Shown here: piece by piece, positions 273 to 35,378 of the stretch
How the letters are laid out: each line of letters begins with the position of its first letter
Position numbering within the stretch: position 1 is the stretch's first letter
Source of the DNA: Planctomycetota bacterium
Lineage (GTDB): Bacteria > Planctomycetota > Planctomycetia > Pirellulales > UBA1268
DNA length: 64,000 nucleotides
Reading direction: 5' to 3'
Assembly (NCBI GenBank): GCA_003669605.1
Contig: QWOP01000084.1
Location: 1-64,000, forward strand
Notes under the pieces: model-generated
The model's input: only the letters and a program-made list of their open reading frames with translations
Told to the model about the DNA's origin: nothing
The model's database searches: none
Position numbers and translations under genes: made by a program

Positions 273-2249
273 TCAGGCGACAAATCGCAGCGGTGACGGG
301 GCGGGGGGGACGGTGATTGGCCGACCCTCCCCCTGGCCACGGGTGAGGTAGTGAAGCAGCGGATTGATCCCCGATTCGGCGACGTCGAGATTGTCAGCCA
401 GATAGGCCCTTGAATCGAACCCCGGCCCCGCCGCCCGCCCCTCGAATCCCCCCGTGATCAGATAGTGCACCACAGGGTCAACGCCCCGCGCCGCCACGTC
501 GGGATACCGTTGCTGATACCACGCCGCATCGAAGAGCGATGACTGGCGGATGAGGGCCAGCTCTCCTGATCGATCGTCTGCCGGGAGCACAGCCGGCTTT
601 CGCCCCCGGAGACGCCGCAGGGCTCGCTCCAAAGGGGCAGTCAGAGGATGTGTTTTTCGGGGAGCCGGACGCAACCGCCCCGCGCGGAGGGCTGCTGCCC
701 GGGCCGCGAAGCGGCAGGCGGTGTCGGCCAAGGCGTCGCGCTGCCGCTGGAAGTCTTGTTGAGCGGAGGCAATTTGGCCGTCCTGGGTCTGGACATGGTC
801 CAGGGCCGCACGCAGTTCGGCTTGCAGCCGTGCCCGCTCCTGCTCCGTTTCTGTCGCGGTCAGATCGCTGCGAGAGAGCCGCGCTGTGGTGGCGTCGAGT
901 TCTGCCCGGAGCCGCTCCCGATCGTCTCTGAGGGCTGTCTTGAGGCGTTCGAGTTCTGCAGTCTGCGCCGCGGCCGCGTCCAGACCGGCCCGCAGCAGGG
1001 TGCGCTCCGACTCTGCGGCCCCAGCACGTTCCTCAAGGGCAATCATCTGCTCCTGACGCATCGATCGTTCAGCCACGAGACGGGCTTGTGCACCCTCGGC
1101 ATCCGCGACGGCGCTCTCCAAGAATGCCAGCCGTTCAAACGCGGCCTGGAGTTTTTTCTGGAGCTCCTCCTGGATCTGCCGGGCCAGGAACTCCGATGCG
1201 CTCGCAGACTGTTCCAGATCGGCAATCCGCGCACTGACAGTTGCTTCAGCCTTGCTAGTGGCATGGAGACACTGCTCGCCCAACCGGCCGGCCTGTCGAT
1301 CCATCACCGCCAGGCACTGCTGGAGGCCGACGATCGTGTCGCACGACCGCTCGAACTGACGCTGTGCCTGGGCTGACTGGGCTTCGATCGCCGCTGCGGA
1401 CTGCTCGCGGATGGCGCTCTCCTGCAAGCTCGCCGCACGGAAGGCCGTGTCGCGCGAGGCCAGGGTCCTGATCGCCGAGAGAGACAGACTCTGCGGCACC
1501 GCCAGAGGGTTCGAGGGATCGGCGTCGATCGCCCGGAAGAGATCGACCTGCGGACTGTTGGCCCAGGCCTGGAGGTCTTCCCGCTGCCAGTGCTCGCGGT
1601 GGAGTTCGGGTGAGATGAAACCGGCGACCTCGTCCGCCGTTGGCATCCGCAGTCCTGTCACACCAAGGGCCAAGAGTTCCGCGACGACCCTGCCGAGAGT
1701 GTCGTGAGGCCTGGTGAGGAGGTCATGGTGGCGGACGCCGATCCAGGGCAAGCCCGCCGCCGCCTGACGGGCGCGGACAAGATGGCATTCCCAGAGAGCC
1801 AGTCCGGCCTCGATCGGCAGGCCGTTGCGCCGCTGCAGGCTCGCGGCCACCTCCAGCGGATGACGGACGATGCTGATGCAGACTGGTGCTTCCAGAATCC
1901 GCAGCCACAGCGGCAGCAGGAGGCACATTCGCGGGTCTTTGATGAACCACGGCTGCTGCCCATCGAGTTCGGATGCGATCCGCGCCGCCCGCATGAGAAA
2001 CTCGGCGCGGACCGGCGCCGGGAAACCGTCGGTGTCGAGCGACAACGGCCTGTCCCACGCACATCCGCTGACATGCAGAGCCCACTGGTGGAGTTCGAAG
2101 ACGTCTTGCCGCTCTTGAAATCCACGCGGGTTGTCGGCGCTTGCCTGCATGGCGGTGCCATCGGCACCGAAGTGGCAGCCAGCCATTTCCAGGAGACCCG
2201 CCAGAGCGGAGGTTCCTGAGCGGTGCATTCCAAGAACGATCAATTGCAT
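273..2249 (-). CDS. Sulfotransferase family protein with long coiled coil and C-terminal EGR/WY repeats
   Basis: Probable PAPS-dependent sulfotransferase of 658 residues acting on a carbohydrate. The start is placed at ATG 2249 because the family's N-terminal beta strand and 5'-phosphosulfate loop begin there (VLGMHRSGTSALAG, about residues 5-18); the open frame continues upstream but is unconvincing. A 3'-phosphate-binding segment (SIVRHPLEVAASLQRR) lies near residue 125. Residues about 280-500 are Ala/Glu/Gln/Arg-rich heptads, a long coiled coil. The last 90 residues hold two copies of a repeat with FDxxWYxxxYPDVA...HYLxxGxxEGR, the same module as in the divergent glycosyltransferase next door. 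The context suggests sulfation of the polysaccharide made by that locus. The family call is firm; the substrate is inferred. Confidence 0.85.
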   Translation of the reverse strand: MQLIVLGMHRSGTSALAGLLEMAGCHFGADGTAMQASADNPRGFQERQDVFELHQWALHVSGCAWDRPLSLDTDGFPAPVRAEFLMRAARIASELDGQQPWFIKDPRMCLLLPLWLRILEAPVCISIVRHPLEVAASLQRRNGLPIEAGLALWECHLVRARQAAAGLPWIGVRHHDLLTRPHDTLGRVVAELLALGVTGLRMPTADEVAGFISPELHREHWQREDLQAWANSPQVDLFRAIDADPSNPLAVPQSLSLSAIRTLASRDTAFRAASLQESAIREQSAAAIEAQSAQAQRQFERSCDTIVGLQQCLAVMDRQAGRLGEQCLHATSKAEATVSARIADLEQSASASEFLARQIQEELQKKLQAAFERLAFLESAVADAEGAQARLVAERSMRQEQMIALEERAGAAESERTLLRAGLDAAAAQTAELERLKTALRDDRERLRAELDATTARLSRSDLTATETEQERARLQAELRAALDHVQTQDGQIASAQQDFQRQRDALADTACRFAARAAALRAGRLRPAPRKTHPLTAPLERALRRLRGRKPAVLPADDRSGELALIRQSSLFDAAWYQQRYPDVAARGVDPVVHYLITGGFEGRAAGPGFDSRAYLADNLDVAESGINPLLHYLTRGQGEGRPITVPPAPSPLRFVA

Positions 2250-2511
2250 GGCATCACTCACACGAATGGGGCCGATTCCGGCGATTCTTTTCAGCACGCA
2301 CGCCTGCCGGGGGGGGGAATCGGGGCCGGGTGTGTACCACGCTGCCCGGTCCCGGGCCAGATTCGTTCGCTCGTCGAGGGACGCAGGCGGGGCGAGTGGG
2401 GGATGTGGGGCGGGTGGGGCAGTGGCGCCGCAGTCAGTCTTGCCTCCGGATGGGGATTGTTCTACCAATCGCCCCCTCTCGTCCCGGCGCCATCCATCAC
2501 GGGTCTCCTCC
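2250..2511. other. Divergent intergenic region with a nine-G tract
   Basis: This 262-base spacer lies between the leftward sulfotransferase and the rightward multi-domain glycosyltransferase, so it must carry both promoters. It contains an uninterrupted run of nine G (2309-2317), about 60 bases upstream of the sulfotransferase start, followed by further G-rich sequence up to 2430. I could not recognise convincing -35/-10 pairs. Confidence 0.4.
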
Positions 2512-5500
2512 ATGTCGCTGAAGCCGCATCTGCGTCCCTACTTTGACCGGTCCTGGTATCTGGCGCGGTACGGAAGGAAGCAGTCCGTCACCTGGATGCC
2601 ATGGCGGTACCACTGCCGCCGGGGATGGCGGAAGGGCTATCAGCCCCATCCACTCTTCGACACGGCCTGGTACCTGGGGCAGAATCTCGACATCGCAGCC
2701 GGGCAGACAGACCCACTGGCGCACTATGTCGAGCATGGCTGGCACGAGGGACGCCAGCCTCATCCGCTCTTCGACACGGCCTGGTACCTGAGGCGGAATC
2801 CAGACGTGGCGGCGTCGGGCAACGAGCCGCTGCTCCATTACCTCACCCAGGGCTGGCGCGAGGGTCGTCAGCCCCATCCTGCTTTCGATGCCGCCGGATA
2901 TCTCGCCGATCATGCCGATGTGGCCGCCGCCGGGGTTGAGCCCCTTGCCCACTATCTCGGCACCGGATGGCGGGAGGGACGACAGCCGCACCCCCTCTTC
3001 GACGCCCGCTGGTATCTGGATGAATACGACGATGTGGCGATGGCGAACGTCGAACCACTCATGCACTTTCTCACCCGCGGCTGGCAAGAAGGGCGCGATC
3101 CAACGTGGAGGTTCTCGGTCCGGGCGTATGTCGCACTCCATCCCGAACTCGCCAACCGTGGCATCAACCCGTTCCTTCACTTCCTCCGCAATGAGTACGC
3201 CGCCGCCGCCGCCGCCGATTCACAGGCGGTCTCCGCACTGCTCGCCCCATTCAGCCCGGCCACCTTGGCCTGGGGGGCCAATGGGAACGGAGAGAACGAC
3301 CAGTCCAACGAGAGCCAGAAAGCTGCCGCCGGCGACACCGAGGGAGTTCTCTCCATCGCCATGTACCTTCCCCAGTTTCACCGCATCCCGGAGAACGATG
3401 CCTGGTGGGGGGAAGGCTTCACCGAGTGGACCAACGTCCGCCGCGGACGACCGATGTATGCCGGCCATCAACAGCCCCACGTTCCCCATCCCGACATCGG
3501 CTATTACGATCTCGACGACGGCGCTGTCCTCGAGCGCCAGGCCGAGTTGGCCAAGCGGTATGGGATCCACGGATTCTGTTTCTATCACTACTGGTTCGAC
3601 GGACGGCGGGTGCTCGAGAAGCCGGTGGAGCGATTGCTCCGTTCCGGCAAGCCAGACATTCCGTTTTGTCTCTGCTGGGCCAACGAGAACTGGACCCGGA
3701 CGTGGGACGGGATGGAGAAGGAGGTCCTCCTCGCCCAGAAGCACTCGGCTGAGGGCGATGAGCGATTCATCGAGGACATCCTGCCGGCGCTCTGCGATCC
3801 GCGGTATATCCGCATCGACGGCGCCCCGCTGCTGATCGTCTACCGTCCCGGACTGCTCGAGGACGCTGCCGCCACGGCGGCGCGGTGGCGGAAATACTGC
3901 GCTGCAAAGGGGTTGCCGGGCCTCCATCTGGCGGCGGTGCAGAGCTTTGACCGCGACGACCCCCGGACGTACGGATTCGATTCCGCAATTCAGTTCCCGC
4001 CACTGCAGATACCTGCTCAAAACCTCGCCCGCCAGCCGGGATTCCCGGGGCTGGAGGGCTTCCGTGGCGCTGTCCATGACTACCGCGAAGCCGTCGCGCA
4101 CGCCATGCGGCAGCCCGCTGTCGACTACCCGCTCTTTTGCGGAGTGATGCCGTCGTGGGACAACACCGCGCGGCGGATGGAGCGAGGCACATCGTGGGCC
4201 AATGCCTCGCCAGAGCTCTACGGTCGTTGGCTCCACGCCGCCGCTGTCCGCACCCGCCGCTCACAGCCGCCAGGCCGGCGCTTGGTGTTTATCAATGCCT
4301 GGAATGAATGGGCCGAAGGGGCCCATCTCGAGCCCGATGAGAAGCATGGCTATCGCTACCTCGAGGAGACCCGCGATGCGCTGCGGACCAAGCAGCCAAG
4401 CGCGCCGGAGATCGTCCTCAATGTCACCGCCAGCCGGCACCCCGAGATCCACGCGACCCGCTGCCAGCGGTTGCGAACGATATTCGGCGGCACCGTGCCC
4501 TGGACCACGCACGCCTTCCTCGCCGACCATCTCGCCCTGCTCTCGCAATTGACAAGCGCCGGCTGCGAATTGGCACTGGTGGCGGGACGGCCGGTGTGTC
4601 GCGTGGACGGCGTCGAGATGGCGATTGACGACCGAGCGGGGCTCGCCACATCCCACCGGATCGCCTGCGGAGCCTCCTCGGCCCCCTTCTGCTTCGTGAT
4701 CCTGCAGTACAACAAGCCGGAAGTCACGGCTCGTTGTGTCGAGTCTCTGCGCCGCCTGCCGATGGCAGGACGGGAGCTCAAGATCGTCATCGTCGACAAC
4801 GGCTCCACTCCCGAGACGGTCGTCCGGACGCACTCGCTGTTTGGGAACCAGACTGACGTGATGGTCCTCTACACCGGCGAGAACCTCGGCTTTGCCCGGG
4901 GGAACAATGTCGGCTACCGCCACGCCCGCGATGTTCTCGGCGCCGACTTCATCGCTGTCATCAACAACGACACGGTGATCGAGGACAGCGGTTTCGTTAC
5001 CAAGTGCCTGGAGCAGTTTCAGACGTGGTCCTATTCCGTTCTCGGGCCCGATATCGTCACCCCCGATGGCCGGCACGAGAATCCATGGAACGATTCGGTG
5101 TACGACACCGCGGGGTGGAAATCACTGCATGGCCTGTACCTGGACCAGCGGCAATCGTGGCGTGACACAGGCCGGGCCGAATTCCGCCGCCTCGGCAGCA
5201 CCTCGCCTGGCGCGCGGGCCATCCTCGACCCGGTGCTCCAGGGTGCGGCCCTGGTGTTTTCCCCGGTGTTCACTGCGGAGCGTGAGCGGTGTTTCGACGA
5301 GCGGACGTTTCTCTATGGGGAGGAGTTCCTCCTCGCCACCGACTGCCTCATCTCTGGCCATCTGATGCTTTACTGCAGTGACCTGCGGATCAGGCATGAG
5401 GAGGGGGTCTCAACCAGCCAACTCCCAGACAGCCGCAAGATCGCCTATGGGTATGACGCGGTGGTGGCCGCCACGGGGATCTGCGTCGAGCGACTCGAGC

Positions 5501-6879
5501 GCCATTCCCAGGCTTGCCGGGGAGTCTGTCTCCCCGCGGCTGCGGTCAGTGGTTCGTCAACGATCCAAGACGGCCGCCGTCACGTGCTCGCCGATCTGCT
5601 CTTCTGCCAGCCCGGTTTTCATGGTGGCGGCGAGTACGGCAAGGCGGTGTTGAAGGCGCTGGTGGAGTCGGCCGCCCGACGCGGCGATGTGACGGTCTGG
5701 GCGGCCCTCGACCCGCGGCTGTTTATCGACGGTTGGATCTGGGAATTGTGCCGCCACCACGCGGTGAACCTCGTCAGCGTGGAGACGTTTGACGATGTCG
5801 CGGCGCTGGTTGACAGCGGCCGATTCGACGCCTTCTTCGCACCGGCCATCGTGGTCTACACCGGCTACGAGTACATGAAGAAGGTCGGTGGTGGGCTGAA
5901 GTTTGACGCGGAAGTGACCCGCGTTGTGGGAACACTGCTCGACGTCCGCGACCATGAATTGGCTGCCTCCTGGGAGCAGATCGCTGCCGCCCGTCGCTCT
6001 GCCGGCTGCCGCCGCGAAGCCGCTCTCACGCCCCTCCAGTGGGCCGCCGAGGCCACCCGGCAGGCGCAGCATGCTGAGCAGTTGCGGGGGATGTACCGTG
6101 GCATCTGCGCCAGCCCCGCGATCGACACCCTGGTGACGATCTCTGAGTATGCGGCGAAGAGCATTCGCACCCGGATTGGCTGCGAGCGGCCGATCGAGAT
6201 TCTCTGGGCTCCACAGAAGGACCGTCCGATCGCACAGCCGCCCGGTGTCCCTGGCGGCGGGTGGCTTGAGGAGCCATTCGCGCTGGTCCTCAATGCCGGG
6301 CGTGAGGAGAAGAACGCCGCCTCCGTGTTGGCGGCGTTCGAGCGCCTTTTCTCCAGCCCCGCGTTCTCTGCGAGTCATCCCCGTCTCCGGGTGGTCTTCA
6401 CCGGGATCGGTAGTCTCGACAACCTCGGCCTTGCCAAGGTGGCACACCCCGGCCGGTTTGTGGCCCTTCCTGAGCTCGCGGCCGCTCACCTTGAGCATCT
6501 GCTCCGCGAGGCAGTGGCGCTGGTGTATGCCTCCTTCAACGAGGGGTTTGGGTATCCCCCCCTCGAGGCGATGACCTACGGGACTCCAAGTGTCGTCGCC
6601 GACATCACATCGATACCGGAGGTGGTGGGGGACGCGGCCATCCCCTGTGATCCGTATCGAATCGATTCCATCGTTTCGGCCATCGAGCGAGTGCTCGGCG
6701 CCCCTCCTGCGGCGGAAGAAATGCGCCGTCGCTTGGCACTGGTGTCGGCACGCCAGCACGCCGACATGGGACGACTCGTGGACATCATCTGCGGGCGGAT
6801 CGCCGGCAGCCACACGGCGGCAGCAGGGGCACAGCGCGAGCGACGGACCGCGACCGTCCCCGAGGTACGGGCCTCCTGA
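2512..6879 (+). CDS. Trifunctional polysaccharide synthesis protein: EGR repeats + WbsX-like domain + GT2 + GT4
   Basis: A 1455-residue fusion. The start at ATG 2512 is chosen because the first repeat begins just after it; the longer open frame overlaps the divergent gene. Residues about 5-225 are six copies of a roughly 38-residue repeat (PHPLFDTAWYL, NPDVA, PLLHYLTQGW, EGR). From about 284 comes a WbsX/GH99-like domain (MYLPQFHRIPEN, WWGEGFTEWTNV, FCLCWANENWTR, FINAWNEWAEG). From about 725 comes a GT-A rhamnosyltransferase-like GT2 domain (VILQYNKPEV, IVDNGS, NLGFARGNN, INNDT). From about 1025 comes a GT4 (GT-B) domain ending in the nucleotide-sugar motif EGFGYPPLEAMTYGTPSV near 1343. It probably assembles part of a surface glycan; donors and acceptor are unknown. 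No signal peptide, so it is likely cytoplasmic. Confidence 0.9.
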   Translation: MSLKPHLRPYFDRSWYLARYGRKQSVTWMPWRYHCRRGWRKGYQPHPLFDTAWYLGQNLDIAAGQTDPLAHYVEHGWHEGRQPHPLFDTAWYLRRNPDVAASGNEPLLHYLTQGWREGRQPHPAFDAAGYLADHADVAAAGVEPLAHYLGTGWREGRQPHPLFDARWYLDEYDDVAMANVEPLMHFLTRGWQEGRDPTWRFSVRAYVALHPELANRGINPFLHFLRNEYAAAAAADSQAVSALLAPFSPATLAWGANGNGENDQSNESQKAAAGDTEGVLSIAMYLPQFHRIPENDAWWGEGFTEWTNVRRGRPMYAGHQQPHVPHPDIGYYDLDDGAVLERQAELAKRYGIHGFCFYHYWFDGRRVLEKPVERLLRSGKPDIPFCLCWANENWTRTWDGMEKEVLLAQKHSAEGDERFIEDILPALCDPRYIRIDGAPLLIVYRPGLLEDAAATAARWRKYCAAKGLPGLHLAAVQSFDRDDPRTYGFDSAIQFPPLQIPAQNLARQPGFPGLEGFRGAVHDYREAVAHAMRQPAVDYPLFCGVMPSWDNTARRMERGTSWANASPELYGRWLHAAAVRTRRSQPPGRRLVFINAWNEWAEGAHLEPDEKHGYRYLEETRDALRTKQPSAPEIVLNVTASRHPEIHATRCQRLRTIFGGTVPWTTHAFLADHLALLSQLTSAGCELALVAGRPVCRVDGVEMAIDDRAGLATSHRIACGASSAPFCFVILQYNKPEVTARCVESLRRLPMAGRELKIVIVDNGSTPETVVRTHSLFGNQTDVMVLYTGENLGFARGNNVGYRHARDVLGADFIAVINNDTVIEDSGFVTKCLEQFQTWSYSVLGPDIVTPDGRHENPWNDSVYDTAGWKSLHGLYLDQRQSWRDTGRAEFRRLGSTSPGARAILDPVLQGAALVFSPVFTAERERCFDERTFLYGEEFLLATDCLISGHLMLYCSDLRIRHEEGVSTSQLPDSRKIAYGYDAVVAATGICVERLERHSQACRGVCLPAAAVSGSSTIQDGRRHVLADLLFCQPGFHGGGEYGKAVLKALVESAARRGDVTVWAALDPRLFIDGWIWELCRHHAVNLVSVETFDDVAALVDSGRFDAFFAPAIVVYTGYEYMKKVGGGLKFDAEVTRVVGTLLDVRDHELAASWEQIAAARRSAGCRREAALTPLQWAAEATRQAQHAEQLRGMYRGICASPAIDTLVTISEYAAKSIRTRIGCERPIEILWAPQKDRPIAQPPGVPGGGWLEEPFALVLNAGREEKNAASVLAAFERLFSSPAFSASHPRLRVVFTGIGSLDNLGLAKVAHPGRFVALPELAAAHLEHLLREAVALVYASFNEGFGYPPLEAMTYGTPSVVADITSIPEVVGDAAIPCDPYRIDSIVSAIERVLGAPPAAEEMRRRLALVSARQHADMGRLVDIICGRIAGSHTAAAGAQRERRTATVPEVRAS

Positions 6880-6900: not shown

Positions 6901-7605
6901 ATGGCCACCACCATCCATCAGATCTTCTATGACCAAGCCCAACTCCCGCGGCTCGATCGAGCGTTTGTGCCCTACGACAACCGGGCGAACCCTGCCCCCG
7001 AATGGCGGGAGTACCACGTCTTCAGCCGTGCCTACCGCGGTGGGCTGTGCCCAGCGGGCGACGTGACCGGCTTCGTGTCCTGGAAGTTTGGCATCAAGAC
7101 TGGCGTGGCAGGGGAAGAATTTCTCGGTTTCATCGCCGACCGACCGGGGTGCGACGTCTACTTCCTCAACCCGCCGCGGCTCGAACGGCGCCGATACCGC
7201 AATATCTGGTATCAGGGCGAACGCCATCATCCCGGGATCCTCGGGCTCACCCAGCGAATCCTTGCCGAAGTGGGGGTGAAGATCGACCTGGAGGCACTCT
7301 GTCAGCCACAGTCACAGATTTTGTTCTGCAACTACTGGGCTGGGACGCGGTCCTTCTGGGACACCTACATGGCATTCTGCGAGCCGATCCGGGAATGCAT
7401 CGAGCACCGCCTCTCGGCTGCGGACCAGGCTCTCATCCACTCGCGCGCCGACCGGGTGATCGATGCCACGTACGTGCCGTTCATCATGGAGCGGTTGTTC
7501 AGCACCCTGCTCTCGCTGCGGAGCGATCTGCGGGTCGCAGCCTGGGTGGATCCTTCTCCGCAGGCGAGTTGGTGGCGCGTTTTCAGGGGCCGGCGGGTCG
7601 CTTGA
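6901..7605 (+). CDS. Uncharacterised protein of polysaccharide locus, possibly glycosyltransferase-like
   Basis: 234 residues, starting at ATG 6901 after a purine-rich GGGAAGGG. It lies 21 bases after the trifunctional glycosyltransferase, so they are probably co-transcribed. The opening TIHQIFYD recalls the IHQIW start of small sugar transferases, and the middle has SWKFGIKTGVAGEEFLGFI and DVYFLNPP, a pattern I associate with conserved proteins in bacterial glycan clusters. No signal peptide or membrane segment is visible. I cannot assign a reaction. A role in processing or transferring sugars is inferred from neighbours and from the weak N-terminal resemblance. Confidence 0.7.
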   Translation: MATTIHQIFYDQAQLPRLDRAFVPYDNRANPAPEWREYHVFSRAYRGGLCPAGDVTGFVSWKFGIKTGVAGEEFLGFIADRPGCDVYFLNPPRLERRRYRNIWYQGERHHPGILGLTQRILAEVGVKIDLEALCQPQSQILFCNYWAGTRSFWDTYMAFCEPIRECIEHRLSAADQALIHSRADRVIDATYVPFIMERLFSTLLSLRSDLRVAAWVDPSPQASWWRVFRGRRVA

Positions 7606-7645
7606 GTTGTTTCCATCGGTCCACGATTCCCTGAGGTCACCCGGC

Positions 7646-9865
7646 ATGCCGTCACTCCAACCGTTCCCCAAGGCGTCGATGACTGCGGGGCGTGGCTCCG
7701 AAAGGCTGGCGCTGGTTGCCGTGGCGGTGGCTGCGGTCGCGCTCGCGGCCAGGGCAATGACGCTGCTGACGCCCGTGATGGCAGGAGATGCCTACGCCTA
7801 TCTCGCCCACAGCCGGTGGCTGGGGCAGTGGGATGTGATGCACGCCGCCGATCCAGGGATCCAACCAGTCAGCAACCCGGTCTTTTTCGGGATCGGTCGT
7901 CTGGCCTGCCTCCTGGCCGATGGCGACGGCACGCTGCTGGTTCGGTTGATGAACATCGTCCTCTTCGTGGCGTCGGGGCTGGCGTGCTACGCCCTGGTCC
8001 GCCGCGACTGCCGGCCCCGGGATGCCACCGGTTTGCTGGTGCTGCTGTTGGGGCTTCCCTCGTCGATGTACTGCATGTGCTTCATGCCGGAACTGCTCTA
8101 TCAGGCGCTGGCCTGCCTGCTTTCGGTGGTGGTGGTCTGGCAGTGGGAGGGAGCAGGATCGTCCGTCCGCAGCGCGGGGCTGATGGGAGTCATTGGACTC
8201 CTGCTGGGCCTGCTCCTGGGGAGCAAGCCACATGGCGTGTCGTTGATCGGTACCACCGCCGTACTGGTTGTCCTCCGGGGAGTGCTCCCCTGGCCACGGC
8301 GGGCGGGGGCGCTCACCCTGGCGCGCGACGCACTCCTGCTGGTGGTGGGGCTCGGTTTCGGATTCCTTGTCGGCCTGGTGGCGATCCACGGCACATCCCT
8401 CCCCGCACCGGCTGATTTGCTGGGAAGGGTGTACGCCGGTTTTCTCAGCGACGGCATCCGTGGCCGGGCCGATCCTCGGGTGGTGATGGGAATCCTCGGC
8501 CGGCATCTGCTGGTGAACATGATGGTGTTGGCTGTGCCAGTGCTCCTTTTGCTGCGGTGGATCGCCTCGGAGGCTGTCATCAGCCCCTCGCAGCACGCCC
8601 GCACCGGCGCGGGCCCACGGCCTGTCGCAGCGTTGGTGATGGCACTGTGGTCACTAGGGGTGTACGCCAGCGCGGTCCTCTTGAGCGTGTCGTTCACCGC
8701 CCTCGTGGCGGTCCGCAATCCAGGAGAGATTCCTCGCATCCATTCCCGCTACTACGCCTACGCCATCCCCTTGGTGATCACGGCCTGGGTGTGGGCGTTC
8801 CCCCATCTCCGCGCCAAGCCTTGGTTCGCCGCCTGGGTCCGGGGGGCGGCTTGCGCGGGCGCTGCCTGCGCCGTGGGATATGCCCTCTGCGGAGAGTCGC
8901 TGATTCAGATCTATCCCTGGGATTCCCCCGACTTCCTCGGATTCAGCCGCTGGAGCGGCTTGGGACCGGCAGCTCGTCTTCTGCCCTGGCTGCTTGTGGG
9001 CGCAATCTGCGCGGCGGCGGCGGCGATGCTTGTCGTTCCCCGACGGGCTCCTTGGATCGTGGGCACGACCCTGGGGTTGGTGTTCCTCGCCGGTCACTGG
9101 AACGTGTCGCGCTGGCTGCATGACAACACGGTGGAGTACGGTCAGATCACCCGTGAAGCCCGGGCCGTGGCAACGCTCTTACCACAAGCCTCGCGGGACC
9201 GCGGCCTGGTTGTCGGAGAGAGTCGCTATAGCCGGACCGCATTCGCCCTCTATGGACTGCTTTGCAACAGCAAGGTGTTGACCCGTGCCGCGCTCTCGAC
9301 GTTGACGGCCAAGGATCTTCCCCCGGGAACGGAGTGGATCCTGCTGGTCGATCCCATCGCGCTCGACATCCCCTACGACACGGCTATCGAGGGACGGCAG
9401 ACGACATTCGTCCGCCTCATTCCAGACGGCACCGAGCCGCCCGACGCCGGGTGGGGGAAAGGGCAGGGGGAGGGAATCACCATTCATCCCAGCGCCGTCG
9501 CGGGCGGGGCCAACTTCGTCGGCTTCCACTCCCCGGAAAGTTGGGGCCGCTGGTCGGCGCTGCCGATCTCCCGGGTCCATCTCCCCGCCCACGTCGAGGG
9601 GGATGTGGCGGTCACCCTGGCGGCAAAGGTTGCCGGGACAGCCCCGCAGCAATTGGTCCTCGCACTCGGCGATGGAGTGGCGGTGGTGGAGTTGGGGGGC
9701 GAGGTCCAGCGGCAGACGTTTGTCATCCATGCAGGGAGTGGTGGCAGCGTCCTCACGCTCCGGGGAGTCGTGCCACAGCGGAACAACCCCTGGGAGCGTC
9801 CGCTGGGAGTAGCGATCGAGTCGCTGGAGATCGCCCCTGCCGGAGAACCGGTGACGTCCCCGTAA
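7646..9865 (+). CDS. Polytopic membrane protein, GT-C/GT39-like glycosyltransferase candidate
   Basis: 739 residues from ATG 7646 (ATG 7679 is an in-frame alternative). The first two thirds contain about ten or more hydrophobic helices, for example LALVAVAVAAVALAARAMTL and LVVGLGFGFLVGLVAIHG. After the first helix comes MAGDAYAYLAHSRWLGQWD, an acidic first external loop like that of polyprenyl-phosphate-dependent GT-C enzymes. The last 200 residues are soluble, beta-rich and presumably periplasmic. It lies 40 bases after the preceding gene, in the polysaccharide run. A role in adding lipid-linked sugars outside the membrane is inferred from topology and context; a flippase or polymerase is also possible. 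Confidence 0.75.
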   Translation: MPSLQPFPKASMTAGRGSERLALVAVAVAAVALAARAMTLLTPVMAGDAYAYLAHSRWLGQWDVMHAADPGIQPVSNPVFFGIGRLACLLADGDGTLLVRLMNIVLFVASGLACYALVRRDCRPRDATGLLVLLLGLPSSMYCMCFMPELLYQALACLLSVVVVWQWEGAGSSVRSAGLMGVIGLLLGLLLGSKPHGVSLIGTTAVLVVLRGVLPWPRRAGALTLARDALLLVVGLGFGFLVGLVAIHGTSLPAPADLLGRVYAGFLSDGIRGRADPRVVMGILGRHLLVNMMVLAVPVLLLLRWIASEAVISPSQHARTGAGPRPVAALVMALWSLGVYASAVLLSVSFTALVAVRNPGEIPRIHSRYYAYAIPLVITAWVWAFPHLRAKPWFAAWVRGAACAGAACAVGYALCGESLIQIYPWDSPDFLGFSRWSGLGPAARLLPWLLVGAICAAAAAMLVVPRRAPWIVGTTLGLVFLAGHWNVSRWLHDNTVEYGQITREARAVATLLPQASRDRGLVVGESRYSRTAFALYGLLCNSKVLTRAALSTLTAKDLPPGTEWILLVDPIALDIPYDTAIEGRQTTFVRLIPDGTEPPDAGWGKGQGEGITIHPSAVAGGANFVGFHSPESWGRWSALPISRVHLPAHVEGDVAVTLAAKVAGTAPQQLVLALGDGVAVVELGGEVQRQTFVIHAGSGGSVLTLRGVVPQRNNPWERPLGVAIESLEIAPAGEPVTSP

Positions 9866-10075
9866 CAGACTGTGAGAAAAGGTGCGGGATGACTTTTTCC
9901 ACCGACCGGTGAGGAAACGCCGATTGCGGTTGACTTGCTTCGATGATGCCGACTACTTCTTCCCTCCGATGTGGGCCGCTTTGTCAGCCTTCGCACCCCC
10001 CAATCAACGTCCTCTCCCCGTCGGCAACGTCTGCCTGCAGCGACCAATGGCCCGATGCCAGAGGGACCACGCACC

Positions 10076-11167
10076 ATGAAAGCACCCCGGATCGCCGTCG
10101 TCATCCCCGCCTTTCGCACTGAACGGCACATCGCGGAGGTGATCGACACCCTCCCCGACTTTGTGTCGCTGGTGGTTGTGGTGGACGATCGGAGTCCCGA
10201 TCGCACCGCCGAAATCGTCCGGGCGCTCCAGCCGGCCGATTCGCGGATCGTCCTCCATTGCCACCCCACCAATCAGGGCGTCGGCGGCGCGGTGCTCAGT
10301 GGTTATGCGGTGGCCCGCGAGCACGGCGCCGAGATCATCGTGAAGATGGACGGCGATGGTCAGATGGATCCGGCGCACCTGGCGAGGCTAGTGGATCCGA
10401 TCGTTCGCGGTCGGGCCGACTACACCAAAGGCAACCGCTTCCTCCACGCCCGCGAGTTGCTCTCGATGCCACCGCTGCGACGGATTGGCAATCTGGGGCT
10501 GTCGTTTCTCACCAAGTTGGCATCGGGCTACTGGAATGTCTTTGATCCCACCAACGGCTACACGGCTCTCCATGCCGGTGTGCTCGACTGCATCGACACT
10601 GATTGCATCGGTCGTCGGTATTTCTTTGAGTCAAGCATGCTGATTGAACTGGGGGTTGCGGGAGCGGTGGTCGAGGATGTTCCCATCCCCGCTCGTTACG
10701 GCGACGAGGTCAGTAGTTTGTCGGTCGCCAGGACACTCAGCGAGTTCCCCGGGCAGTTGCTGCGTGGCTGCCTACGGCGCATTTGGATCCAACATTTCGT
10801 CCGCGATTTTAGCGCCCTGGCACTCCTCCTGACAGCCGGACTGGGGCTGGCAACTTTCGGTGCGCTATGGGGGGCTGCGTGGTGGCTCGAATCGTGGCGG
10901 ACCGGGGTGGTGACGTCCACCGGCACGGTGATGCTCAGCGTCTTGCCGCTGATCCTCGGAGTGCAGTGCCTGCTGCAGTGCCTGCTCCTCGATCTGCAAT
11001 CTGTCCCGCGGGGAGCGGTGCACCGCATGGCCGCGCGGACACCGGTCTTTCCCCGCATCGTCCGTCCTGAAGATCAGCCGGGCGAAATCCCCGTGGGCCG
11101 GCTTGAAGAGGGGATGCACGGCGCGGTTGGCTCAGAATACCAGGTGAGCGGAAGGAGGGCGGCATGA
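10076..11167 (+). CDS. GT2 family glycosyltransferase, polyprenyl-phosphate sugar synthase type, membrane-anchored
   Basis: 363 residues from ATG 10076, where the GT-A fold starts (RIAVVIPAFRTERHIAEVI). The nucleotide-binding Asp pair is in VVVVDDRSPDRTAE and the DxD metal motif in IIVKMDGDGQMDPAHLARL. Two hydrophobic helices near the C-terminus (ALALLLTAGLGLATFGALWG and SVLPLILGVQCLLQCLL) match the DPM1/GtrB arrangement. It likely moves a sugar from a nucleotide to a polyprenyl phosphate at the inner membrane face, which would supply a donor for the GT-C-like protein upstream. It overlaps the next gene by ATGA. A 210-base gap precedes it, so it may have its own promoter. Confidence 0.88.
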   Translation: MKAPRIAVVIPAFRTERHIAEVIDTLPDFVSLVVVVDDRSPDRTAEIVRALQPADSRIVLHCHPTNQGVGGAVLSGYAVAREHGAEIIVKMDGDGQMDPAHLARLVDPIVRGRADYTKGNRFLHARELLSMPPLRRIGNLGLSFLTKLASGYWNVFDPTNGYTALHAGVLDCIDTDCIGRRYFFESSMLIELGVAGAVVEDVPIPARYGDEVSSLSVARTLSEFPGQLLRGCLRRIWIQHFVRDFSALALLLTAGLGLATFGALWGAAWWLESWRTGVVTSTGTVMLSVLPLILGVQCLLQCLLLDLQSVPRGAVHRMAARTPVFPRIVRPEDQPGEIPVGRLEEGMHGAVGSEYQVSGRRAA

Positions 11168-11871
11168 GCGGTATCAGTGGCATGACGACAGCCGGAGTGG
11201 TCCCTGGAACGGCCTCCAGAGAGAGGGCCCGGGGGGGAATCCAGAAGGTGGCTGATTTCGTCACCTTCCCCCTGCGGGCTCTGACGTTGTTCCATGACGA
11301 CCGCTTCGGTCTCTCCTGCCAGGCCACGGAGCGCTACGACTACGCCGCCTCGCAGGTGGCAGGGCGCTGTCTCGACGTTGGTTGCGGCAGCAACCGCTTC
11401 GTGCGCGAGTTCCTCCATGGCCACGGTGTCGGGGCTGACGTCTACCGTTACCCAGACAATCCCGACGGCGTGATTCTTGAAGACCCAACGCGGTTTCCCT
11501 GGCCGGATGCGTCGTTCGAAGCGGTGACTTTTCTGGCCAACATCAACCATGTTCCCCGCGAGCACCGCGATGCCGAACTGGCGGAGGCGCACCGGGTTCT
11601 CCGGCCGGGCGGACGGATCATCGTCACCATGGCATTGCCTGCCGTGGAGGTCGTCGTGCACCAGGTGATCTGGGCCTACGACAGGCTGTTCGGCACGAAA
11701 CTCGACCACGACAACGAGCGGGGAATGATCGAAGGGGAGGAGTACTACCTCACCGGCAAAGAAATCCGCACGCGACTCTCCCGGGCTGGTTTCACCGCCA
11801 TCGTCTACCGCCCCTTCTGGACGCAGTGGGCCCTCAACGGGATGTACATCGGCAGCAAGCACAACGGCTGA
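11164..11871 (+). CDS. Class I SAM-dependent methyltransferase
   Basis: 235 residues. The start ATG 11164 overlaps the stop of the GT2 gene (ATGA), indicating translational coupling; an in-frame ATG at 11182 is possible. The SAM-binding glycine motif is LDVGCGSNRFVREFL and the post-motif LRPGGRIIVTM follows, the pattern of methyltransferase family 11. The position inside the polysaccharide locus suggests methylation of a sugar or lipid intermediate, but the substrate cannot be read from sequence. Confidence 0.85.
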   Translation: MSGISGMTTAGVVPGTASRERARGGIQKVADFVTFPLRALTLFHDDRFGLSCQATERYDYAASQVAGRCLDVGCGSNRFVREFLHGHGVGADVYRYPDNPDGVILEDPTRFPWPDASFEAVTFLANINHVPREHRDAELAEAHRVLRPGGRIIVTMALPAVEVVVHQVIWAYDRLFGTKLDHDNERGMIEGEEYYLTGKEIRTRLSRAGFTAIVYRPFWTQWALNGMYIGSKHNG

Positions 11872-11930
11872 ATGCACCGCAGACTTCCATCACCCCCCCG
11901 TCGTCGGGGGCACACTTCCTGGATCGATCC

Positions 11931-12620
11931 ATGCACACACTCACCTTTCCGGCCTATAAGTCCGCCTTCCGCACCGCGATCCGGACGGCGCTTTCTGAGG
12001 CCCAGCGGGGGTCGCTCGACGAGGCGGCCTTCCCTGCCTACACCCACAAGAATCCCCTCATCAACTGGCTGTTCTGGCAGCGACTGCGGGTGGTGATGAA
12101 GTACATCGAGCGGATGGGGCCGTTTGACCGGGTGCTCGATTTTGGCTGCGGCAGCGGCGTCATGCTCCCATTCCTGGCAGCCCGCTCCCGCAACGTTGTT
12201 GGTTTGGATGTTGATCTGCTCGCCTTCCGGACGATGAGCCGCCGACTGGAGTTCCCGTCCAACATCGAGGTCCACGAGGCCTCGCGGATGACGCTCCGCT
12301 CGCTCCCCGCTGGCGGTTTCGATCTGGTGACGGCACTCGACGTGCTTGAGCATGTCGACGACTTGCCGTCGACGCTCGACGACCTCCTCCGCCTCCTCAA
12401 GCCAGGGGGGCGATTGGTGGTCTCCGGCCCCAGCGAGAATCTGTTTTACAAGCTCGGTCGACGCCTCGCCGGTCCTGAGTATTCCGGTGCCTACCACGAG
12501 CGTGGCATCCCCGAGGTGCGGATCGCGCTGGGGGAGAGGGTGCCGGTGGAGACGGTGGCGAGGCTCTATCCGCCGGTGACGTTGTTCGACATCTTTGCTG
12601 GCACCTGCCAGGCGGCCTAA
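11931..12620 (+). CDS. Class I SAM-dependent methyltransferase
   Basis: 229 residues from ATG 11931. Motif I is RVLDFGCGSGVMLPFLA with acidic motif II VVGLDVD; LDVLEHVDDLPS and LLKPGGRLVVSGPSE complete the family 11 pattern. It lies 59 bases after the previous methyltransferase but is not closely similar to it, so the pair is not a recent duplication. It is the last gene of the rightward polysaccharide run and faces the leftward HU gene, with a hairpin terminator between them. The substrate is unknown, probably a glycan or lipid precursor. Confidence 0.85.
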   Translation: MHTLTFPAYKSAFRTAIRTALSEAQRGSLDEAAFPAYTHKNPLINWLFWQRLRVVMKYIERMGPFDRVLDFGCGSGVMLPFLAARSRNVVGLDVDLLAFRTMSRRLEFPSNIEVHEASRMTLRSLPAGGFDLVTALDVLEHVDDLPSTLDDLLRLLKPGGRLVVSGPSENLFYKLGRRLAGPEYSGAYHERGIPEVRIALGERVPVETVARLYPPVTLFDIFAGTCQAA

Positions 12621-32022: not shown

Positions 32023-33306
32023 ATGCCCTACGAGCTCAGCACCCCAGCCCGGACGCCGCTGCATGGTATGGGGTGCCTCGTGTGCTTTCGGCCCATGAGC
32101 GTCATCGCGTCATTCCTTCTCGCCACCGTCCAGCCATGCTTCCTGCTGGCGACGCTGTCTCGGGCGGCAGACGACATCCCCTGCCGTGTGGAACGCGCCG
32201 ACGGCGGATTGGTCAGCGGTCGTTTGGTGCGGATCGGCGCCGCAGGCGTTGTGGTGGAGGCTGCTGGGAGCGAGACGGTGATCCCGCTCGATGGGGTCAG
32301 GACGGTGGAATCGACAGCAGCGCAGGGGGTGACGGAGGGAATCGTAAGGCTGTCGCTTGTCGATGGGGGCTGGCTCGAGGGGAGCGATCTCTCGTGGGAC
32401 GGCACCGCAGTGTCGGTGACGCGGCCGGACGGGATCGTCGAGCTTCCGGTGGAGCGGCTGCGCAGCGTCGCTTGGCGGTCGGGCAAGGCGGCGGGTGCGC
32501 AGCCCGTGCCCGGTGAGGCCTGGCTGGGGGCGTTGCCGGACTCCATCGAGAGCGATCTGCTCATCGTGGGATCGGACGAGGCCCATGAATTCGTCGAGTG
32601 CGCGATCACGTCGATTACCGCGCAGACTGTTTCGGTCGTGCTTGACGAGGAGACGATCCCGGTCAAACGTTCGAAGATTATCGGGCTGCACTGGTTGCGG
32701 ACGGCACCGGAAGTCACCCGGTCCGGCGCGGTGGCCGTGGATCTCGCCGGCGGCAGCCTGCGGGCCGACGTCGTGGAATGGTCACCGCAAGGGATGGTTC
32801 TCGATGGCAGCGTCCGTCTTCCCGCCGACGCCCTGCGGAGGATCGACTGGGCAGCCGGTCGTACGGTGTCGCTTGTGTCACTGGCGACCGAGCGGCTGGA
32901 TGTCGAGCCATACTTCGGCGCGCTGGGGCGATTGCCGGGCCTGACCGCCTACTTCTCGCCGCGCGGGGTGGGGCCGGGAGAGGGCTTCGCCGCCCCCGGC
33001 CTGGTGGTGCGACCGCGGACCGTGGCAGTCTGGCGTCTGCCGCCGGAGAGCCGCAGGTTGCGCACCACGGTGGCGCCGGCCGCCGGCAGCCGTGCCTCAG
33101 GCGGAGCACTGTTGGTGATCGCCCTGGACGACCGCGAACTCTTCCGCCGTCAGATCGATGCCCGCGTCTGTACTCCTGATTTCCCCGAGGGCGTGCCGCT
33201 GGATCTTGATGTCGCGGGAGGCAGGCGGTTGACGATCTCGGTTGACTTTAGCGCTGCCGATCCGGGATGTCCGGTGCGACTCACCTCACCCATGATCGAA
33301 CAATGA
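32023..33306 (+). CDS. Exported protein with SH3-like repeats and NPCBM-like C-terminus
   Basis: 427 residues. ATG 32023 is chosen because AAGGA lies five bases upstream. A hydrophobic export signal follows (MSVIASFLLATVQPCFLLAT). The body has four or five short beta modules of one type (GLVSGRLVRIGAAGVVVEAA, GWLEGSDLSWDGTAVSV, VPLTV-like returns), resembling SH3/LSm-like barrels. The last 130 residues (LDVEPYFGALGRLPGLTAYF to RLTISVDFSAADPGCPVRL) resemble the NPCBM carbohydrate-binding fold found in planctomycete exported proteins. It overlaps the protease gene by ATGA. It probably binds sugar or polymer in the periplasm; this is inference from fold resemblance. Confidence 0.75.
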   Translation: MPYELSTPARTPLHGMGCLVCFRPMSVIASFLLATVQPCFLLATLSRAADDIPCRVERADGGLVSGRLVRIGAAGVVVEAAGSETVIPLDGVRTVESTAAQGVTEGIVRLSLVDGGWLEGSDLSWDGTAVSVTRPDGIVELPVERLRSVAWRSGKAAGAQPVPGEAWLGALPDSIESDLLIVGSDEAHEFVECAITSITAQTVSVVLDEETIPVKRSKIIGLHWLRTAPEVTRSGAVAVDLAGGSLRADVVEWSPQGMVLDGSVRLPADALRRIDWAAGRTVSLVSLATERLDVEPYFGALGRLPGLTAYFSPRGVGPGEGFAAPGLVVRPRTVAVWRLPPESRRLRTTVAPAAGSRASGGALLVIALDDRELFRRQIDARVCTPDFPEGVPLDLDVAGGRRLTISVDFSAADPGCPVRLTSPMIEQ

Positions 33307-35378
33307 ATCGAATCTCACCTCCATCATTGCACCGCTTTGTTGAATGGCGTTGGGCCGTTTGGCTGGCCCCGTTGGCCGGGCAGGGGCCCTCCGTGGTCCA
33401 CCGTATGGTGGTCAAAGAGATCATGCAGCTCATGCACGTCATGCAGATCATGGCGATGGTCTTGCTGGCGGTGCTGTGGGAAACCGGGCCGCGGGCTCTG
33501 AGCGCCGCAGAGGTGCCTCCGGCGGTGTTGGGTGCAGAGCGACAGAGGGTCGCCGCCATCGACAAAGGCGCCCAAGCCGCGGTGGCGATCTTCGCCGGAG
33601 AGGCGGGAGGAGGATCGGGGGTCCTTGTCAGTCCGGATGGCTACGCACTGACGAACTTTCATGTTGTCCAGCCGGCGGGCGTCGCCATGAAATGTGGCCT
33701 GTCAGACGGCAACCTGTATGACGCGGTCCTGGTCGGTCTCGATCCCACCGGTGACGTGGCTTTGGTGAAACTGGTCGGAAGAGATGATTTCCCGTTTGCA
33801 GAACTGGCTGACAGCGATCTGGTGGAGGTGGGCGACTTCTGTTTTGCGGCTGGCAATCCGTTTCTGCTGGCCACCGACTTCCGCCCCTCGATCAGTGCCG
33901 GGATCGTCTCTGGAACGCGGCGGTACCAGTTTCCGGCGGGCACGATCCTTGAGTATGCCGACTGCCTCCAGGTGGATGCCGCGATCAATCCGGGGAATTC
34001 GGGCGGCGGTCTGTTCGACGCCGACGGGCGGGTGATCGGTGTCAATGGCCGGGCGTCGTTCGAGAAACGGGGCCGGGTGAACGTCGGCGTGGGGTATGCA
34101 ATTTCCTCCAATCAACTCCGCCAATTCCTCGGCTGTCTGAAGGGGGGGCGGTTGGTCGACCACGCCACTCTCGGGGCCACCGTGGCCACTGCAGCGGATG
34201 GCAGAGTGGTGGTTTCCGATATTCTGGAGTCGTCCGATGCCTACCGCCGCGGTCTGCGGTACGACGACGAGATCGTGTCGCTTGCCGGTCGTCCGGTGAG
34301 GACGGTCAACGCGCTGAAAAACATTCTCGGTACGGTTCCGGCCGGATGGAAAGTGCCCCTTGCGTACCGCCGTTCTGGCCGTCATCGGGAGATCCTCGTC
34401 AGGCTCTCCGGAGTGCACTCCTCCGGTGAACTGGCCCGGATCGTGGCCGGAGGCGAGGAGGGGCAGCAGGCCGAAGGTCCGCCGGGCGATCCCGCGCAGC
34501 CGGCCCAAAAGCGAAAAGAAGTGGCAGAGATTCCCGAGGCGCTCCGCGGGATGTACGAGGCCCGCAATGGCTTCACGAACTTCCATTTCAATGCCGTGGA
34601 ACGCGATCGTGTTGCAGCCAACGTCGCGACCCATTACCGATTACCGAAAGACAACGGCCCTTGGACGATCAGTGGTAGGCTCGCCGACGGCGAGCCATTC
34701 CGGATCGAGATCTCCGATCGTCGTGCAATCATCGATCTGCCGACCGGCACGACGTCAATCGACGCCACCGGCGAGCTCGATACCAATCTCAGTCCACCGG
34801 GGAGCGGAGGCTTGCTCGCTGCACTGGTGGTGTGGCGAAGACTCCTCCGGGAAGGCCCCGCGGCACTGGGGCGGACCACGTACTGGGGCACGGCTCCCCT
34901 CTGGGAGAGCGCGACGAAGGATGGTGGCGGTGATCGTGGTGATGCCGACGCCGCGGTTGATGGGGGTATCGCCCCCGGCACTCCGGGCGGATCGCCGCTG
35001 GCCGATGTGCTCGACACGGCCGCGGCGGCGGTCGAGGCCCGGATCATGGTGGGCGCCGACGGTGCGATTGTGGGCATCGAACTCTGGCCGACTCCCGACG
35101 CCGATCCCTGTGAGATCCGCTTCAGCCCGGCCCCGGGTGGTGAGGCATCCGGGATGCCGGCCGGTTTCGAGGTCCGTCACGCTGATCGGTTGTTCGGCAG
35201 ATTCCGCATCGACGAGACAATGCTCCAAGACGACACAGCGCTCCCGGACGAGACAGCGCTCCCGGAAGGGCCGGAAGTTCCGGGAGCCGATCCCCCTGCC
35301 GCCGCCGGCAGAGGTGAATCGGCGGACCGGGCCGCACTGCCTGGCAGCGGTCACGGGGAAAATCGGGGGACGGCATGA
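33303..35378 (+). CDS. HtrA/DegP-type serine protease with PDZ domain, catalytic triad intact
   Basis: 691 residues from ATG 33303 (ATGA overlap with upstream). The N-terminus has a methionine-rich hydrophobic export or anchor segment. The trypsin-like domain retains the full triad: His120 in ALTNFHVV, Asp151 in TGDVALVKL and Ser233 in NPGNSGGGLF. One PDZ domain follows at about residues 295-360 (ILESSDAYRRGLRYDDEIVS). The C-terminal 300 residues are an extra beta-rich domain of unknown role. HtrA proteins degrade or sense misfolded envelope proteins. Here the gene sits between the NPCBM-like gene and two paralogues that lack the triad, so it is the only likely active protease of the set. Confidence 0.92.
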   Translation: MNRISPPSLHRFVEWRWAVWLAPLAGQGPSVVHRMVVKEIMQLMHVMQIMAMVLLAVLWETGPRALSAAEVPPAVLGAERQRVAAIDKGAQAAVAIFAGEAGGGSGVLVSPDGYALTNFHVVQPAGVAMKCGLSDGNLYDAVLVGLDPTGDVALVKLVGRDDFPFAELADSDLVEVGDFCFAAGNPFLLATDFRPSISAGIVSGTRRYQFPAGTILEYADCLQVDAAINPGNSGGGLFDADGRVIGVNGRASFEKRGRVNVGVGYAISSNQLRQFLGCLKGGRLVDHATLGATVATAADGRVVVSDILESSDAYRRGLRYDDEIVSLAGRPVRTVNALKNILGTVPAGWKVPLAYRRSGRHREILVRLSGVHSSGELARIVAGGEEGQQAEGPPGDPAQPAQKRKEVAEIPEALRGMYEARNGFTNFHFNAVERDRVAANVATHYRLPKDNGPWTISGRLADGEPFRIEISDRRAIIDLPTGTTSIDATGELDTNLSPPGSGGLLAALVVWRRLLREGPAALGRTTYWGTAPLWESATKDGGGDRGDADAAVDGGIAPGTPGGSPLADVLDTAAAAVEARIMVGADGAIVGIELWPTPDADPCEIRFSPAPGGEASGMPAGFEVRHADRLFGRFRIDETMLQDDTALPDETALPEGPEVPGADPPAAAGRGESADRAALPGSGHGENRGTA

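Follow-up and report, generated by a model that had tools for sequence, protein, structure and literature searches.

The window, by which we mean the whole stretch of 64,000 nucleotides analysed here, comes from a Planctomycetota bacterium and begins at base 1 of its contig (QWOP01000084.1), contig 49 of a 92-contig assembly that is 84% complete. Its first 6.9 kb hold two divergent genes, P0001 on the reverse strand and P0002 on the forward strand, which share a repeat of 38 residues (Table 1). An earlier note on this DNA had placed two copies of the repeat at the end of the leftward sulfotransferase (P0001) and six at the beginning of the rightward fusion protein (P0002), and this is borne out by the coordinates, the 38-residue register and shuffled controls. 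The period of the six copies in P0002 is exactly 38 amino acids. In pairwise tests of the eight copies 27 of 28 pairs exceeded all 2000 shuffles, so the likeness is not due to chance; the exception, B1 with B6, was matched by 3 of 2000 shuffles. A variant similar to B1 also stands first in the arrays of three other loci (L034, L035 and L120).

Table 1. Features of the P0001/P0002 locus (window coordinates).
Feature	Coordinates	Strand	Length or evidence
P0001: sulfotransferase, long helix, two repeats	276-2249 (feature span 273..2249)	-	658 amino acids
Repeat A2 (P0001)	306..419	-	
Repeat A1 (P0001)	420..533	-	
P0001 coiled-coil-like spacer, predicted helices at residues 255-345, 351-460 and 465-523	681..1487	-	AlphaFold2, heptad score
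P0001 sulfotransferase domain, residues 1-229	1563..2249	-	Pfam Sulfotransfer_3, PF13469
Divergent intergenic region P0001/P0002	2250..2511	none	262 bp
P0002: six repeats, WbsX, GT2, GT4	2512-6876 (feature span 2512..6879)	+	1455 amino acids
Repeat B1 (P0002), degenerate N-terminal unit	2542..2655	+	
Repeat B2 (P0002)	2656..2769	+	
Repeat B3 (P0002)	2770..2883	+	
Repeat B4 (P0002)	2884..2997	+	
Repeat B5 (P0002)	2998..3111	+	
Repeat B6 (P0002), degenerate C-terminal unit	3112..3225	+	
WbsX domain, PF14307, P0002 residues 282-619	3355..4368	+	E 7.5e-133
GT2 domain, PF00535, P0002 residues 728-868	4693..5115	+	E 4.9e-14
GT4 domain, PF00534, P0002 residues 1253-1406	6268..6729	+	E 1e-15

P0001 was assumed to begin at the ATG at 2249; another ATG in frame, at 2513, was judged less likely. 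Its N-terminal domain scores above the Pfam cut-off for Sulfotransfer_3 (E 1.3e-6; 29.3 bits, cut-off 27) and carries a GMHRSGTS motif. Its M, H, R, G, T and S do not vary across the 12 proteins aligned, and we take it to be the phosphosulfate-binding motif of sulfotransferases dependent on 3′-phosphoadenosine-5′-phosphosulfate (PAPS). No solved relative of the domain was found by sequence at E up to 0.01; the sulfotransferase fold is backed by Foldseek, with matches to 4gbm (E 3.9e-4) and TPST2 (E about 4e-4) at probability 1.0. Related sulfotransferase domains occur in eleven other repeat hosts (phmmer E 8e-16 to 8e-40). The window's genome encodes adenosine-5′-phosphosulfate (APS) kinase, so the sulfate donor can be made. 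AlphaFold2 models P0001 as an enzyme domain, long helices and repeats, with an overall predicted local distance difference test (pLDDT) of 74.3 and a predicted template modelling score (pTM) of 0.46; pLDDT is mostly 60-80 in the long helices, a region that also gives weak SMC-like NCBIfam matches, and about 90 in the repeats.

In P0002 the WbsX domain reaches 443.8 bits against a cut-off of 25.1. Together the WbsX, GT2 and GT4 domains suggest glycosyl transfer, not processivity, and a polymerising role for the protein is an assumption. RTX nonapeptides were not found by pattern in P0001 or P0002, and Pfam likewise gives no RTX match there.

The earlier note had called two of the six copies almost identical in DNA and had concluded that they arose by recent duplication. 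This part does not hold. The best pair, B2 and B3, agrees at 79 of 114 positions (69%), with a single identical run of 24 nucleotides and equal third codon positions at 20 of 38 codons, and Tandem Repeats Finder reports 2.2 copies of 114 bp with 77% matches. With the best pair only 69% identical, there is no sign that an entire unit was duplicated very recently.

The repeat and its predicted fold

As far as tested, the repeat is uncatalogued and no solved fold was found for it. In P0001 and P0002 it is matched by no Pfam, NCBIfam or PHROGs model, although it is present in many bacterial phyla. A profile of 30 double repeats retrieved no PDB chain at E up to 1, and an earlier search of the PDB by sequence found, at E 0.015 or worse, four distinct sequences of apparently unrelated enzymes. 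AlphaFold2, run on a 36-row alignment, predicts the P0002 array to be an all-helical solenoid with several short helices per unit (mean pLDDT 96.3, pTM 0.90). When this solenoid was compared with 350,542 PDB chains by Foldseek, the best match was one chain at E 9.6, and in a further fold comparison, limited to two chains, none reached Z 2. Tetratricopeptide (TPR) and Sel1-like repeats are also alpha-solenoids of short helices with a similar unit length; unlike these, the present repeat has no Pfam match in P0001 or P0002 and no Foldseek match in the PDB. Pfam ALF (PF03752), a family of short repeats of unknown function, scored 25.3 bits in one host locus (L036), just below its cut-off of 25.4. 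The same model gave no match in P0001 or P0002 at E up to 1 and none in eight repeat-carrying genomes, yet the controls of that last search gave none either. Among open-licence PMC papers, searches on the repeat motif, WbsX, sulfotransferase terminators, solenoids in glycosyltransferases and giant viruses with WbsX found nothing on this repeat.

Against predicted viral proteins (BFVD) the best Foldseek match of the solenoid was a giant-virus glycosyltransferase. It was partial (E 7.8e-4, TM-score 0.17 of the query) and the only one of 15 with E below 0.001. Weaker matches, with low TM-scores, included a DUF5672 protein, an FkbM methyltransferase and other giant-virus glycosyltransferases; the viruses include Fadolivirus, Hyperionvirus and Catovirus. 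Nineteen stretches of viral contigs were drawn, each with one repeat-bearing frame. On the one fold match below E 0.001 the repeat may perhaps also occur in giant-virus glycosyltransferases.

Distribution and host proteins

Within the window's genome the repeat was found only at the P0001/P0002 locus (assembly 84% complete). Among 59 related genomes six carry it, counting that of the window itself, and none of the 11 other genomes of the genus does. At least 6 of 246 genomes of the window's phylum (own included) and at least 16 of 142 evenly drawn Alphaproteobacteria (chosen centre included) carry it; both tallies are lower bounds, part of the first-look candidates having been scored per genome. 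The Alphaproteobacterial draw was centred on a genome picked for having the repeat (G302), and is less biased than the set of named loci. These loci are the best 80 of 115 repeat-bearing stretches in the genome collection and were selected by patterns close to the query, so that counts from them lean toward window-like proteins. A local profile gave 191 repeat-bearing frames, none nested in another, in 151 clusters at 60% identity, and 24 of the 80 named loci hold at least two such frames together, some of them overlapping. For the hosts, open reading frames were taken from the first start codon; some frames, in L044, L061, L063, L072 and L089, overlap and have uncertain starts. Many hosts come from incomplete genomes, and related hosts are not independent.

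Hosts with N-terminal repeats in the named loci (49 of 64 taken, 15 near-duplicates being left out) carry GT2 (22), Glyco_trans_1_4 (16) and WbsX (11) domains, in overlapping counts. The other named hosts (46 of 47 taken) include five with RTX, five with GT2 and four each with Sulfotransfer_3, Methyltransf_24 and Peptidase_M10_C domains. In the even Alphaproteobacterial draw RTX proteins make up 20 of 53 hosts, next to seven GT2 and two WbsX proteins; three of the 16 genomes (G344, G405 and G416) supply 18 of the 21 RTX hosts as defined by pattern. Fifteen hosts from the window's phylum and relatives include five with GT2, three with WbsX and none with RTX. The RTX proteins and M10 peptidases of Alphaproteobacteria thus have the same repeat as the window's proteins, joined to calcium-binding RTX repeats and peptidase domains instead of glycan enzymes. 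Spacing of exactly 38 residues is found at 23 of 73 intervals in RTX hosts versus 311 of 481 in non-RTX hosts. Strict specificity of the repeat for glycan enzymes is ruled out by the RTX hosts of the even draw. The earlier note had proposed a profile search elsewhere and had named, as the finding that would count against it, a repeat equally common in proteins with no tie to glycans. This has come about in part: the repeat has a nearly fixed place in glycan enzymes, and it is also common in RTX proteins and peptidases, M10 peptidases among them, that show no obvious link to glycans.

Plasmids carry the repeat in 136 of 72,556 records, among them 12 from Escherichia and four from Enterobacter. 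One of these is Enterobacter hormaechei plasmid pEh25_3 (L006; IncY, typed mobilizable), in which genes for a polysaccharide export protein, an ATP-binding cassette (ABC) permease, an ATPase and a sugar transporter are followed by a repeat-bearing pair, a coiled-coil protein that has its repeats at the C-terminus and a glycosyltransferase that has them at the N-terminus. On a Paracoccus yeei plasmid an annotated sulfotransferase gene, in which no repeat was detected, lies directly before a repeat-bearing glycosyltransferase (L010:8155-9636). Of 50,697 phage records, one has the repeat. It is a scaffold from human faeces, labelled 'bacteriophage' and unverified (L008, MT836085.1), and is possibly bacterial DNA; its frame of 1236 residues has ten repeats. 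A frame of 444 residues assigned to an actinomycete (L036:7287-8618) consists almost wholly of 11 repeats and is a possible free scaffold, and a 2066-residue frame from the window's phylum (L117:3593-9790) has 18 copies of a divergent form with a longer period.

Domain order, fusions and spacer

Domains, repeats, fold predictions, polarity, the pattern of fusions and neighbours and the coil-like stretches were all computed, with home-made local models for the domains in the counts of domain order; that for methyltransferases was seeded on the Methyltransf_24 domain. The repeats follow the enzyme in all 12 sulfotransferase and all seven methyltransferase hosts, and precede it in all 22 WbsX hosts and in 48 of 52 GT2 hosts. 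One methyltransferase host (L106) was missed by the local model; Pfam detects its domain, and the order is unchanged. After clustering at 60% identity the figures are 12/12, 6/6, 11/11 and 35/39, respectively, and at this level the polarity of sulfotransferase and methyltransferase hosts differs from that of GT2 hosts with a Fisher p of 2.4e-11.

Two proteins unite in one chain most of what the window holds as two genes. In Rhabdochromatium marinum (L045; 2528 amino acids) a sulfotransferase is followed by a coil-like stretch, 22 repeats, WbsX, GT4 and GT2; its Sulfotransfer_3 match (26.1 bits) falls just below the cut-off of 27, and the domain is a relative of that of P0001 (phmmer E 5.6e-31). 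In a protein from the window's phylum (L114; 1707 amino acids) the order is sulfotransferase, coil-like stretch, nine repeats, GT2 and WbsX; here the sulfotransferase is weak by Pfam (E 0.0028) and again a relative of the P0001 domain (phmmer E 1.6e-23). Since sulfotransferase and glycosyltransferase halves are fused elsewhere through the same repeat, the repeat probably ties sulfating and sugar-adding enzymes together.

The 19 sulfotransferase and methyltransferase hosts comprise ten fused to a glycosyltransferase downstream of the repeats (L045, L114, L042, L085, L167, L040, L046, L052, L103 and L161; the GT4 match of L040 is weak, E 1.7e-4 and below cut-off, and L046 is closely related to L052), six split but near a glycosyltransferase gene that bears the repeat (the window, L063, L072, L079, L101 and L057), two without such a neighbour and one truncated by a contig end (L050). 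The partner in L057 lies 3.4 kb off, is divergent like the window's pair and matches WsaF_C (E 2e-37), presumably a rhamnosyltransferase domain. In a tree of the 12 sulfotransferases fused and split forms are intermixed, with four changes and no more clustering than under shuffled labels; the tree leaves five of nine inner branches open and does not fix how many fusions took place.

As a rule, neither a matching of homotypic repeats nor gene conversion among partners finds support. Over 98 ordered pairs, partners from the same locus do not on the whole have repeats more similar than strangers do (median rank 0.48), and thus give little sign of matched homotypic keys; 12 of the pairs fall in the top 5%, where about five are expected.

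By a simple home-made heptad score, 8 of the 12 hosts with a sulfotransferase and 6 of the 7 with a methyltransferase (14/19 together) have a coil-like run of 42 residues or more ahead of their first repeat; that of L161 is shorter than 42. Long coils are found in 12 of 33 C-terminal non-RTX hosts of at least 300 residues. Among N-terminal hosts they occur in 9 of 90 (Fisher 0.0019), among other frames in 14 of 600 (Fisher 2.8e-10) and among RTX hosts in none of 27. The 600 control frames may include non-genes, so the N-terminal hosts are the fairer control.

Proposed coupling of glycan enzymes and its alternatives

We propose that P0001 and P0002 each supply one half of a single glycan-assembly machine with the repeat solenoid as its coupling element, a reading that we consider about evenly poised between right and wrong. 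It builds on the earlier note, which saw in the shared repeat a docking module that brings polymerising and sulfating enzymes together. That idea gains from the fusions, from the near-strict order of enzyme, repeat and glycosyltransferase and from the 16 of 18 evaluable sulfotransferase and methyltransferase hosts that are fused through their repeats to a glycosyltransferase or have a repeat-bearing one close by; it loses by the RTX and peptidase hosts and by the overall lack of matching between partner repeats.

The closest known systems are those of WbdD, a terminating enzyme with a coiled-coil ruler and a C-terminal site that recruits the polymerase (PMC11231755, PMC3482155). E. coli O8/O9a WbdD/WbdA and the related Klebsiella O7, O12 and O4 systems come in one-protein and two-protein formats and share with the window's pair an N-terminal modifying enzyme and a long coil, the other end of which carries or recruits the glycosyltransferase (PMC11231755). 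The predicted anatomy of P0001 fits a WbdD-type terminator, its modifying enzyme being set apart from the opposite end by a long coiled coil; that its C-terminal region would recruit the polymerase is suggested by the fusions and the neighbouring genes. It differs in that a sulfotransferase replaces the methyltransferase/kinase or Kdo transferase, and in that the coupling element would be an unrelated 38-residue repeat solenoid which is also present on the glycosyltransferase. The Klebsiella terminator ORF7-O4 (GT137) likewise combines a helical, TPR-like bundle with a coiled coil, the bundle coming first (PMC11231755), whereas the array of P0001 follows the coil and has no PDB match.

In this reading, P0002 would add sugars through the WbsX, GT2 and GT4 modules behind its six-repeat N-terminal solenoid, and P0001 would add sulfate, probably at or near the growing chain end, its catalytic domain being kept at a distance by some 270 residues that are predicted as long helix and probably form a coiled coil. 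The repeats would form a rigid alpha-helical solenoid that serves as a covalent linker in one-chain forms and as a terminal docking platform in two-protein forms. We infer that the two arrays would dock physically, on each other or on a common partner, and that the sulfate may go onto the polymer made by P0002 and end the chain. The coil could then act as a spacer or ruler, as in WbdD/WbdA, such that only chains of a certain reach are sulfated. A bolder and rather doubtful extension is a whole family of polysaccharide machines whose enzymes bacteria combine by swapping repeat-tagged parts. In these a new and widely exchanged solenoid would connect a sulfotransferase or methyltransferase, carried on a coiled-coil ruler, to a glycosyltransferase, and the chains produced would have a set length and bear sulfate or methyl groups at their ends. 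If so, the repeat would be a sequence tag for pairing glycan-assembly partners from genomes and a module for coupling enzymes, and sulfate would join the possible chain-end marks.

Several observations weigh against this coupling. Coupling of glycan enzymes cannot be the only use of the repeat, given the RTX and M10 peptidase hosts, and partner repeats are overall unmatched. Four of the 52 GT2 hosts break the order, with the repeats after the domain (L131 and L148) or on both sides of it (L060 and L083), and in L085 the repeats are followed by one more methyltransferase domain, which belongs to a different Pfam family. Two sulfotransferase hosts (L055 and L075) have no repeat-bearing neighbour within 6.5-8 kb on either side; L075 is directly followed by a GT4-like frame without repeat. 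By score 4 of 12 sulfotransferase hosts have no coil (none in L057 and L167, 36 residues in L063, 31 in L072), and in 5 of the 12 C-terminal hosts with a coil no first enzyme was identified (L006, L026, L068, L087 and L093). Export of WbdD-type capped chains proceeds via an ABC transporter with the carbohydrate-binding domain of Wzt (Wzt_C), which reads the cap. In the window's genome (84% complete) neither Wzt_C (PF14524) nor Poly_export was found, and of 17 genomes checked three had a Wzt_C match reaching E 0.001; some of the repeat loci contain genes resembling ABC exporters, and by similarity L006, L062, L098 and L101 have full Kps-type sets. At the locus itself, the neighbours at 6901-12620, which include a GT2 and two methyltransferases, lack the repeat, and a gene to the left of P0001 would be unseen because the window begins at a contig end.

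The main rival is that the repeat is a glycan-binding module, with each enzyme holding the nascent polysaccharide, RTX proteins using it to stick to surface polysaccharide, and the polymer itself joining the enzymes. It would unite the glycan-enzyme and RTX hosts and agrees with the poor matching of partner repeats, with the near-invariant Tyr, His, Gly, Pro and Phe positions and frequent Trp and Arg of the repeat, and with one locus (L009) in which a repeat frame lies beside an RTX-type protein gene within a polysaccharide locus. However, simple binding of polymer does not predict the strict polarity and the fused linkers, and as Foldseek found no similar solved fold it found no known carbohydrate-binding fold either; we regard this explanation as rather unlikely. 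Somewhat less probable again is a generic spacer or stabilising solenoid spread by domain shuffling without a shared function, in which neighbours share the repeat by history, genes of polysaccharide loci being often exchanged, and split pairs stem from gene fission in mid-array. The wide and patchy spread in the phylum (at least 6/246), in Alphaproteobacteria (at least 16/142) and in the genus (0/11 others), the RTX hosts, and the four changes between fused and split sulfotransferases, no more clustered than shuffled labels, are as this would have it, but the polarity persists after clustering, and fission alone would not be expected to leave an array on each half, and to do so across several phyla and for two enzyme types that are unrelated. 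That the sulfotransferase acts on another glycan or on protein, the genes being merely divergent neighbours in one cell-surface locus, accords with their opposite orientation across a 262-bp gap and with tyrosylprotein sulfotransferases among the closest solved folds, but is very improbable beside the fused forms that combine the same sulfotransferase with WbsX.

Elsewhere in the window, three consecutive genes for trypsin-like proteases, two of them with PDZ domains, lie at 33267-38577, about 9 kb downstream of a MoxR-DUF58-BatA gene set.

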